Below the pieces are notes generated by a model. The model saw nothing but the letters and a program-made list of their open reading frames with translations, was not told the DNA's origin and searched no databases. Of a stretch of 64,000 bases of DNA, positions 45,387 through 48,191 are shown in pieces. Origin of the DNA: Pseudomonadota bacterium. Lineage in GTDB: Bacteria; Pseudomonadota; Gammaproteobacteria; Burkholderiales; Rhodocyclaceae. Positions within the stretch are counted from its first letter, which is position 1. The number at the start of each line of letters is the position of its first letter. The stretch lies in assembly GCA_018241725.1 (NCBI GenBank), contig JAFEDI010000031.1:1-64000 (forward strand), in the 5' to 3' direction. Both the position numbers and the translations under genes were made by a program.

Positions 45387-46613
45387 TTAGCCGCGTTTTT
45401 TCCAGCTGGCGCGGCAGGTGTCCTGCAGGTAGTCGAGGACGTCGCCTTCGTCGTCGAGGTCGAGCTGCATGCGGGCTTCGGGGCCGAGGTCTTCGAGCCA
45501 CATGCGGCGCACGTCGGCCTGGTATTCGAAGGGGACGACGTGTTCGATGAAGTGGGCGACGGCCTGTTCGTCGAAGCCCTTGTCGCGGAAGTTGTCCCAG
45601 ATATGCAGGGCGTCCTTCTTGCGCAGGCTGCGGGCCGGTTCGACGCCGGTGGCGATCATCAGCAGCACGCCGCATTGCACGTCGGTGTGGTCGCCCTGGC
45701 GGCCGGTGATGTGCTGCCATTCCTCGGCGCGGGCCTTGTCGTGGTGGGTGATTTCGTCGACGGAGCTGGTGTCGAAGAAGAACAGCCCGGAGAAGCGGTC
45801 CTGATTGCGGTAGAGCTCGGTGGCGGGGACTTCGCGGATCACCGGCAGCACCTTGGCGATGAAGCGCTCCTTCTCCTTGTCCATCAGGCTGCGCAGGTGG
45901 GCGGGGGCGTCCTCCAGCCAGGCGTCGAGGGTCGGGAAGCTGGAGCTGCGTTTCTTGAGGGCGGCTTCGTGCAGTTTCATGAAACGATCGACGCTGAAGA
46001 AGCCGGCAGGCTTGCGTTCGCTGAGCAGGATCAGCAGCGCGCTGTTGATCACCGATTCGCAGAACACGTGCCATTCGGTGGCGTCGTCACGGCTCACGCC
46101 GAACTTGCCGGCCAGCCAGTAGGCCAGCTCGATGTGGTGCTGATTCTGCTCGCGGGTGCGCCGTTCGGCGAGGTAGCGGGAGTAGCTGATCGGCGTGACC
46201 GAGGTGTATTTGTCGAGAAAGTCCTTCTCGTTCTCGCGCAACACCTCGGGGCCGGCCAGCAGGCGTTCGCTGGGCAGGGCGTGGAGCTTGCGCAGGCGGT
46301 CGGCGCCGGCCTTGGAGAGGGCCAGCAGCGTCTTGTCGCGCAGCAGCTGGGTGGCGACGTCCATGCGTCCACCGGATTCCGCTTCGAGGGCCAGGCCGAC
46401 CAGGGTCACCAGCCGGTTGCGGGCGGCTTCCAGCTCGGGGCGCAGGTTGGCGGTGCCGAAATAGGCGGCCAGTTGCACGATGCCCTTGGCGCCTTCCTTG
46501 CGGATGCCGTCCAGGCGGGCGGCATCCACTTGGTGGTTCTTCAGCGCGTGGCGCAGCACCCGTTCGAAATAGGGGCTGGTATCGACGGTGGCGAGAGCGG
46601 TATCGATGGACAT
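45387..46613 (-). CDS. Unrecognised protein, last gene of the J-domain module
   Basis: The product has 408 residues, soluble and mostly helical. No signal or membrane segments. Recognisable landmarks are RRTREQNQHHIELAYWLAGKFG, a His/Asp-rich centre (DEITHHDKARAEEW, TGRQGDHTDVQCGVLLM) and an acidic C-terminus (ARMQLDLDDEGDVLDYLQ). I know no family. It is the fourth gene after metF on the same strand, ten bases after its neighbour, and ends the cluster. Confidence 0.8.
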   Translation of the reverse strand: MSIDTALATVDTSPYFERVLRHALKNHQVDAARLDGIRKEGAKGIVQLAAYFGTANLRPELEAARNRLVTLVGLALEAESGGRMDVATQLLRDKTLLALSKAGADRLRKLHALPSERLLAGPEVLRENEKDFLDKYTSVTPISYSRYLAERRTREQNQHHIELAYWLAGKFGVSRDDATEWHVFCESVINSALLILLSERKPAGFFSVDRFMKLHEAALKKRSSSFPTLDAWLEDAPAHLRSLMDKEKERFIAKVLPVIREVPATELYRNQDRFSGLFFFDTSSVDEITHHDKARAEEWQHITGRQGDHTDVQCGVLLMIATGVEPARSLRKKDALHIWDNFRDKGFDEQAVAHFIEHVVPFEYQADVRRMWLEDLGPEARMQLDLDDEGDVLDYLQDTCRASWKKRG

Positions 46614-46623
46614 GGGTGTCGGA

Positions 46624-47388
46624 TCAGATCGCGGATTCTTCGTCGTCCTCTTCCAGGCGCGGTACGCCCGGTTCGGTTTCGGCGGGCAGGCGGGCGGCTT
46701 CGGCAGCGCGCTGGAGGCGGTCCTGGATCTCGATGACGAGCAGCTCGAAGGTGTCCTGGAACTCGTGGCGCAGCACCCAGGCGGTTTCCATCCAGTCGCC
46801 ATCGGCCACTTCGGAGCGGGACATGCGCACGCGGGCCATCTCGACGGCGTCGCCGATCTCCAGGCCCTGGTCGAGCTCGTCCACGCGCTCGGCGTCCCAG
46901 GTGATGGCGGACTTGGGCGCGAAGGCCTTCTCGGCGTCGATCTCCTGTTCGAAGACGCCGTGGAAGGCGAGGGCGAGCAGGGAGTCGTAGTGGTCGATGA
47001 AGTAGTCGGCCAGCAGGCGCACGCCTTCATCGTGCTCGGCGAGGCATTCCAGGACCTCGGCGCAGGACGGGCCGGTGCGGTGCATGACGGCGTTCATGGT
47101 GTTGCGCAGGCGTGGCACGTACTTCTCGAGGGGCTCGCCGTACTGGCGCTCGAGGAGGATCGCCTGGACGAACTGTTCGGGGCTGACCAGCAGGTTGATG
47201 ACCGATTCCTTGCTGGCGTCGAACTCGCGCATGACGGCCAGGACGTCCTTGGGGGCCATCTCGTCGAGCACCGCCACCAGGGCGTGGTCGCCTTCCTGTT
47301 CGGCGATGACGGCGAGATTGGCTTCGGCTTCGGCGATTTCGCCGGCCTGGATCAAGGCATGGGTTTGCTTGATGACAAGCTCAGACAT
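46624..47388 (-). CDS. Unrecognised acidic helical protein of the J-domain module
   Basis: The product has 254 residues, strongly acidic. The N-terminal part is a pair of helices reminiscent of TPR or HEAT-like packing (MSELVIKQTHALIQAGEIAEAEANLAVIA, then HALVAVLDEMAPKDVLAVMREFD). The C-terminus is a Glu/Asp-rich tail. No family recognised and no catalytic motif seen. It lies 18 bases after the preceding gene and 10 bases before the next. Confidence 0.8.
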   Translation of the reverse strand: MSELVIKQTHALIQAGEIAEAEANLAVIAEQEGDHALVAVLDEMAPKDVLAVMREFDASKESVINLLVSPEQFVQAILLERQYGEPLEKYVPRLRNTMNAVMHRTGPSCAEVLECLAEHDEGVRLLADYFIDHYDSLLALAFHGVFEQEIDAEKAFAPKSAITWDAERVDELDQGLEIGDAVEMARVRMSRSEVADGDWMETAWVLRHEFQDTFELLVIEIQDRLQRAAEAARLPAETEPGVPRLEEDDEESAI

Positions 47389-47406
47389 GGAGAGAAAACC
47401 TTTCGA

Positions 47407-47916
47407 TTAACGGTCGACGGCGTCGAAACCCTGTTCGGACAGCCACTCTTCCCCGGCTTCGCCGAGGTCGTCGCGCTCTTCGTCATCCTCGTCGCTGGTG
47501 CTGGGCGCGGCGGCGCGGGCGATGGCACCGCTGCCGAGCATCCATTCGAGCACTGCGGCAGTGACGAGAAAATCGCAGCCGCCGGCCTGCTTGAGGCTCT
47601 GCTCGGCGAGCGGCTTGGCCCACGGGGCGAGTTCGAGGGATTCGGTGAGTTCGTCCCAGCTGGGGAAGCTGCCGTCGCCCGGCTCGGTGTGCGAGGCGGC
47701 GTGCAAGGCCTTCGGCGCGGTGAAGCGGAAGGCGCCGTGGAGGGCGGAGGCCACCATTTCGGGGGCGGTGTCGATCATCGAGAGCAGGAAGGGGAATTCG
47801 CTGTGCTTCTCGCGGACGCGCTTCTTGAGTACGTCCTTGCCTTCCGAGTCGGAGCGCAGGTCGTCGATTTCACTGGCGTAGCGCTCGAAAATGTCTTCGA
47901 AGTAAAACGAGGTCAA
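47407..47916 (-). CDS. Unrecognised acidic protein of the J-domain module
   Basis: The product has 169 residues. It begins with MTSFYFEDIFERYASEIDDLRSDSEGKDVLKKRVREKH and ends in an acidic tail (STSDEDDEERDDLGEAGEEW). The start codon is TTG and overlaps the stop of the J-domain gene (TTGA), so translation is coupled. No family recognised. No membrane or signal sequence. Confidence 0.75.
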   Translation of the reverse strand: MTSFYFEDIFERYASEIDDLRSDSEGKDVLKKRVREKHSEFPFLLSMIDTAPEMVASALHGAFRFTAPKALHAASHTEPGDGSFPSWDELTESLELAPWAKPLAEQSLKQAGGCDFLVTAAVLEWMLGSGAIARAAAPSTSDEDDEERDDLGEAGEEWLSEQGFDAVDR

Positions 47917-48191
47917 GAAATTACCTTTTCAATGTACGAGGCCCACAGGGACGTGGCCTCCTGCAGCGGGTCGTCGATGAGGTTGCGTTGGCGCAGGGCG
48001 TCGTAGTCGCGGCGCTTGGCCTCGTCGGCCAGCAGATCATAGGCTGTCTGGATGTCGCGGAAGCGCGCCGCCGCGCCCGGATCGGGGTTGCGGTCCGGGT
48101 GGTAGAGGCGCGCCGCCTTGCGGTAGGCAGTCTTGATGACTTCCGCCGAGGCGCTCGGGGCGACGCCGAGGACTTCGTAGGGATCGCGCAT
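47913..48191 (-). CDS. Small J-domain (DnaJ-like) protein
   Basis: The product has 92 residues. The J domain (about 3-65) is complete: DPYEVLGVAPSASAEVIKTAYRKAARLYHPDRNPD with the invariant HPD at 31-33, and AYDLLADEAKRRDYDALR. A short helical tail (about 66-92) replaces the Gly/Phe and zinc regions of DnaJ, so it is a class III co-chaperone that would stimulate a DnaK-type ATPase for a specific client. It begins five bases after the metF stop and its own stop overlaps the next gene's start. Confidence 0.9.
   Translation of the reverse strand: MRDPYEVLGVAPSASAEVIKTAYRKAARLYHPDRNPDPGAAARFRDIQTAYDLLADEAKRRDYDALRQRNLIDDPLQEATSLWASYIEKVIS

Follow-up and report, generated by a model that had tools for sequence, protein, structure and literature searches.

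The closest described relative of the locus treated here is atcJABC, an operon that serves cold adaptation in Shewanella oneidensis (Maillot 2019, PMC6715715; cited here, like PMC7871303 and PMC4239095 below, from the part of the text available). AtcJ of S. oneidensis stimulates DnaK and requires H31 to do so. Its 21 C-terminal residues bind AtcC (7 nM for the whole protein), AtcC binds AtcB, and growth at 7 degrees C is strongly impaired without J, B or C and not without A (PMC6715715). The present work concerns four adjacent genes in a 64,000-nucleotide stretch of DNA (positions 1 to 64,000 of contig JAFEDI010000031.1, assembly GCA_018241725.1; hereafter the window) from a bacterium of the family Rhodocyclaceae, order Burkholderiales. 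We propose that together they form a divergent counterpart of Shewanella atcJABC, in which the tail of the J protein is predicted to hold AtcC and to bring DnaK to an AtcC-AtcB complex, probably in the service of growth in the cold; we regard this reading as likely.

Four open reading frames of 92, 169, 254 and 408 amino acids (aa) lie in a row on the minus strand at 45387..48191. The first, the atcJ-like gene (47913..48191, -), encodes a minimal J-domain protein (Pfam DnaJ, 1e-23) that consists of a J domain, with the HPD motif at residues 31-33 (48093..48101, -) as in S. oneidensis AtcJ, and a short tail only, without a Gly/Phe or zinc region. It is followed by the atcA-like gene (169 aa, TTG start; 47407..47916, -), the atcB-like gene (254 aa; 46624..47388, -) and a long form of the atcC-like gene (408 aa; 45387..46613, -). 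The TTG start of atcA and the TGA stop of atcJ fall within the bases TTGA, the gaps from atcA to atcB and from atcB to atcC are 18 and 10 bases, and only 5 bases separate the stop of metF from the start of atcJ. AtcA, AtcB and AtcC have isoelectric points of 4.33, 4.33 and 6.13. The predicted models of AtcB (predicted local distance difference test score, pLDDT, 79.5) and AtcC (pLDDT 90) are almost entirely helix, and in AtcC a C-terminal extension of about residues 290-408 (45390..45746, -), delimited from alignments, lengths and the model, forms a separate helical block beyond a low-confidence hinge at 284-291. The original prediction, made from the DNA letters and their translations, had described the four frames with this spacing, a minimal J protein and three soluble partners, at least two of them acidic and all of them helical in appearance; this description was correct, the helical look being borne out for the 254- and 408-aa proteins. 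The window genome encodes a single AtcB; its dnaK-type gene adjoins the best DnaJ match. The same genome has one more long HSP70 match and five weaker ones, and its J-domain matches number six overall. A gene at 44101-45276 (-), an ABC-type substrate-binding protein by eye, lies 110 bases after atcC, and the same gene is found there in the relatives L065 and L066 and not in L067.

The original prediction called this set undescribed, and in that respect it has to be revised. In NCBIfam the four adjacent proteins match the cold adaptation models AtcJ (NF050028, 1.2e-10, residues 1-86), AtcA (NF047888, 0.004), AtcB (NF047889, 2.2e-4) and AtcC (NF047890, 0.091, residues 7-93), in operon order. Each of these matches is weak when taken singly; a run of four neighbours that match all components of a single operon in the right sequence is not weak. 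The AtcJ model matched again in the relatives L024 and L017 (1.6e-17 and 1.5e-14). For a comparison by profile, Shewanella and Moritella loci were found with a DNA pattern derived from ten residues of the AtcJ tail peptide printed in PMC6715715, which gave 12 Shewanella loci and one Moritella locus, all with the complete J-A-B-C series but L031, where the available stretch ends after A. When profiles from eight of these 13 loci were aligned with those of the window-type group (hhalign, local mode), each protein matched its Shewanella namesake: J with 99.3% probability (1.8e-20), A with 96.4% (1.1e-9), C with 93.6% (2.1e-7) and B as given below, while each of the 12 cross (off-diagonal) pairs stayed at or below 0.4%. 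Global mode, which is separate from the comparison cited here, gave 97.4% for A, 20.9% for B and 96.3% for C.

A further form of the operon, found in L022-L024, has an AtcC of 286-293 aa that matches both the window type (96.4%) and Shewanella (92.3%), and it thus bridges the two groups for C; its AtcB matches the window type with 97.8%. With the bridging sequences added, the match to Shewanella rose to 97.2% (4e-11) for C and to 78.1% (1.8e-5) for B.

The tail of the J protein gives a second line of comparison. The Shewanella AtcJ tail, as printed in PMC6715715, is NVIVTDPNSAMRELWDQFYP, and that of the window J is NLIDDPLQEATSLWASYIE; the motif DPLQEATSLW of the window corresponds to DPNSAMRELW of S. 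oneidensis. The peptide is assigned to AtcC in the methods of that paper and to AtcJ in its results, and the loci place it at the end of J. Aligned with these peptides and with the Shewanella and Moritella tails, the window J shows the motif P-x7-W at residues 75-83 (47943..47969, -), shared by 68 of 80 J proteins; the count covers 80 of 82 genomes, L144 (no J in view) and L170 (short frame) being left out. The J frame of L170 has 73 aa by HPD count and is possibly broken or a sequencing fault.

Several results weigh against the identification. All four proteins miss the curated NCBIfam cut-offs (41.7 against 150, 17 against 200, 20.8 against 440 and 12.2 against 370 bits for J, A, B and C), and because of this the window proteins are divergent relatives rather than NCBIfam equivalogs. 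Among the eight proteins of L024 and L017, the AtcA and AtcB models found no match and the AtcC model only 0.0065 and 0.18. B is the weakest of the four profile links (68.7%, 4.6e-5), and the Shewanella profiles are shallow, with an effective number of sequences (Neff) of 1.2-1.5 for A, B and C. The bridging AtcA, a protein named by its position in L022-L024, finds no match in Shewanella (1.8%) or in the window type (0.8%), which slightly lowers our confidence in the atcJABC reading, and the bridging AtcB does not match Shewanella (1.3%). Twelve of the 80 J tails lack an exact PX7W, six of them keeping the Trp without the Pro and six lacking the Trp. Finally, the S. oneidensis operon is expressed at all temperatures tested and nearly constantly from 7 to 37 degrees C (PMC6715715), a point taken up below. 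In the J proteins of L013, L017, L079, L080, L180 and L184 the Trp is replaced by Ser or Ala (Phe in L184), and A, B and C are kept.

The missed cut-offs, the weak B link and the bridging A that does not bridge could be turned into a case for an undescribed four-gene module that has no relation to Atc and whose J protein merely resembles AtcJ. Such a case would have to set aside four namesake profile matches between the Shewanella and window-type groups with none among 12 cross pairs, as well as a tail motif and a gene order common to both, and we consider it very improbable.

The gene order itself is widely kept. Of the 82 genomes with flanks, a set that includes three bridging forms, 79 carry all four genes on the same strand in the sequence J, A, B, C, and two of the exceptions are cut by contig ends. 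The third, L191, has the only displaced J of the set: its atcJ is found beyond atcC and on the other strand. The order is found in several families of the bacterial order and in Shewanella and Moritella, which shows that the module is more than chance; the neighbourhood check named in the original prediction thus finds an arrangement not confined to close relatives. By gene content, a single-protein query found relatives of AtcB in 13 of 200 genomes of the order and an alignment query in 27 of 399; within the family they occur in 23 of 199 genomes and 9 of 68 genera, in 19 of 23 genomes of the window's genus and in 27 of 28 of a second genus (that of G745), the genome sets behind these counts overlapping in part. 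The distribution of AtcB is patchy from genus to genus, and within some genera most genomes have it. In many betaproteobacteria, names can now be given to four genes that are mostly annotated as hypothetical, and another, more varied branch is open to tests of the Shewanella model.

By analogy with S. oneidensis, the window J would dock through its short C-terminal tail on AtcC, AtcC would bind AtcB, and J would thereby bring DnaK to the AtcC-AtcB complex, a recruitment that may serve growth at low temperature. The original prediction had supposed that the J protein could work specifically for a complex formed by the other products of its operon, which agrees with AtcJ, AtcC and AtcB of Shewanella (PMC6715715), although the set it took to be new was already known. 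The extra C-terminal block of AtcC may add a further contact.

A different account keeps the same family and the same DnaK-recruiting layout and gives the module a main job other than cold growth, for example bringing DnaK to RNA polymerase or to a methyl-cycle client under other stresses. The constant expression of the S. oneidensis operon across temperatures makes another role possible, and the authors leave one open (PMC6715715). Furthermore, AtcB is reported to contact RNA polymerase (meeting report, PMC7871303), and the module stands behind metF in two genera. Against this, the phenotype reported for the family is cold sensitivity (PMC6715715), and the client is so far hypothetical in window-type bacteria. 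We judge a main role outside the cold unlikely, at perhaps one case in a few, and retain the reading of a divergent atcJABC set that supports cold growth.

The setting of the module adds a feature that a cold role does not predict. Upstream of atcJ on the same strand lie metF (48197..49054, -), an open frame with relatives in 115 of 121 family genomes, and ahcY (49107..50519, -, counted from the likely ATG, the listed frame starting at TTG 50615), likewise an open frame, with homologues in the genomes compared. The row is headed by an S-adenosylhomocysteine (SAH) riboswitch (50621..50729, -; Rfam RF01057, E 3.3e-6) that covers the complete model, positions 1-78 of 78, at 47.2 bits against a gathering threshold of 37. 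The original prediction had correctly placed the module five bases after metF and had overlooked the riboswitch that heads this row. Of the 19 genomes of the window's genus that carry atc, 12 have metF upstream of atcJ, five have no metF within the 5.5-6.5 kb upstream in view and two are unassigned; the second genus has the link in 25 of 27, with one lacking it and one unassigned. No metF was found upstream of atcJ in the 36 other genomes, 32 of which have at least 3 kb in view. An SAH riboswitch is present in 32 of the 33 linked loci scanned (of 37, from the two genera), the exception being L156, where no ahcY is in view, and in none of nine unlinked loci scanned; the count in linked loci reflects ahcY, which often carries an SAH riboswitch anyway. 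Two other RNA matches were noted around these loci. C4 antisense RNA is a phage-type RNA, and a match to it (RF01695, 69.3 bits) lies not far from the atc genes in the close relative L065 (L065:1313-1398). In L160 and L176 of the second genus, matches to the SAM_alpha riboswitch (RF00521) stand about 7-8 kb from the SAH riboswitch; the available part of the 2014 regulon study (PMC4239095) places that class only in Rhizobiales and Rhodobacterales.

Whether the atc genes share the control of ahcY and metF is an evenly balanced question. The position behind ahcY-metF might be due to chance or to an insertion hot spot, the atc genes having a promoter of their own and escaping the SAH riboswitch. 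Hot spots stay a candidate because the DNA behind metF is variable: a crude choice of the next frame gave 28 unrelated groups in a set of 40 further genomes of the family, hand-picked from the 115 with metF and with none from the two linked genera; ahcY is in view upstream in 30 of the 40. The gap between metF and J also ranges, over the 37 linked genomes, from a 4-base overlap to 2.7 kb, being 396-640 bases in 8 of the 25 linked genomes of the second genus and 2.3-2.7 kb in 3 of the 12 of the window's genus, where in addition the five genomes without metF in view are found. On the other side, the gap is at most 17 bases in 12 of the 37, and neither a sigma-70-like promoter nor a minus-strand terminator-like site turned up in a simple scan of 45000-51200, all four terminator-like sites being on the plus strand (4.9 expected). 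The promoter result weighs little, because 0.6 promoters are expected by chance and other promoter types were outside the scan.

The tree also speaks against chance. In a quick tree of concatenated A, B and C (79 of the 82 rows; L013, L016 and L019, at contig ends, left out), linked rows fall into two separated groups with at least four changes, and the window's group is nested among unlinked relatives. A single linked clade was rejected, with a log-likelihood 476 lower, in an approximately unbiased (AU) test from which L149, L150 and L178 were left out, a choice made after the tree had been seen. A first AU test, of all linked against all unlinked rows, was too strict given the apparent reversals, and both tests rest on a quick tree with long branches.

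If the atc genes are read through from ahcY-metF, which would put them under the SAH switch and is the least certain step of the scheme, a dedicated DnaK-recruiting network would have been brought under SAH-riboswitch control on at least two occasions in a single family. All four Atc proteins would then rise along with AhcY and MetF as SAH builds up, the targeting of the chaperone (perhaps to RNA polymerase through AtcB) would follow the methyl cycle, and through the extra AtcC domain the complex would gain a contact without a Shewanella counterpart. We put this extension forward as tentative, and rather expect it not to hold in full. If true, it makes chaperone targeting responsive to the methyl cycle; in any case, the recurrent placement behind an ahcY-metF pair with an SAH riboswitch is a direct and cheap handle for asking whether a chaperone network is wired to that cycle. 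A search of the open-access literature found no link of atc genes to the SAH riboswitch or ahcY, subscription papers being mostly outside that coverage.

Compared with atcJABC of S. oneidensis, the window set has the same gene order and a J protein of 92 aa against 94, with HPD at 31-33 and a short tail containing DP-x6-LW; Shewanella J has a 6-residue insert after HPD that is missing from the window J. The PX7W motif of the window J also agrees with the short AtcJ of beta- and gamma-type environmental proteobacteria, for which a 2023 study by Weber in Environ Microbiol is said to give the PX7W rule together with variation in atc operons. AtcA has 169 aa in the window and 162-192 aa in the Shewanella and Moritella loci used, and AtcB 254 against 252-253 aa. 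Shewanella AtcC is homologous to the N-terminal two thirds of the window AtcC, whose additional 110 or so C-terminal residues are absent from the Shewanella and Moritella forms (296-299 aa) and from the bridging forms. Identity between window and Shewanella proteins is 21% for B, 16-21% for C and 23% over 120 aligned columns for A. Unlike Shewanella atcJABC, the window set stands behind ahcY-metF with an SAH riboswitch. Shewanella belongs to the Alteromonadales. Lineages including this order lack ahcY, two Idiomarina excepted, according to the available part of PMC4239095. The SAH-riboswitch ahcY-metF operons of that study share the riboswitch, ahcY and metF with the window row; the part available names no chaperone or atc gene, and Rhodocyclales are absent from its main text, whereas the window row carries atc genes. 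The addition of genes to such operons is not new, since other taxon-specific additions are reported there, such as PF04020 in Ralstonia and Burkholderia (PMC4239095). The module is thus real, conserved and already described in kind, and what the window presents is a variant of it with a longer AtcC and a recurrent link to the methyl cycle.
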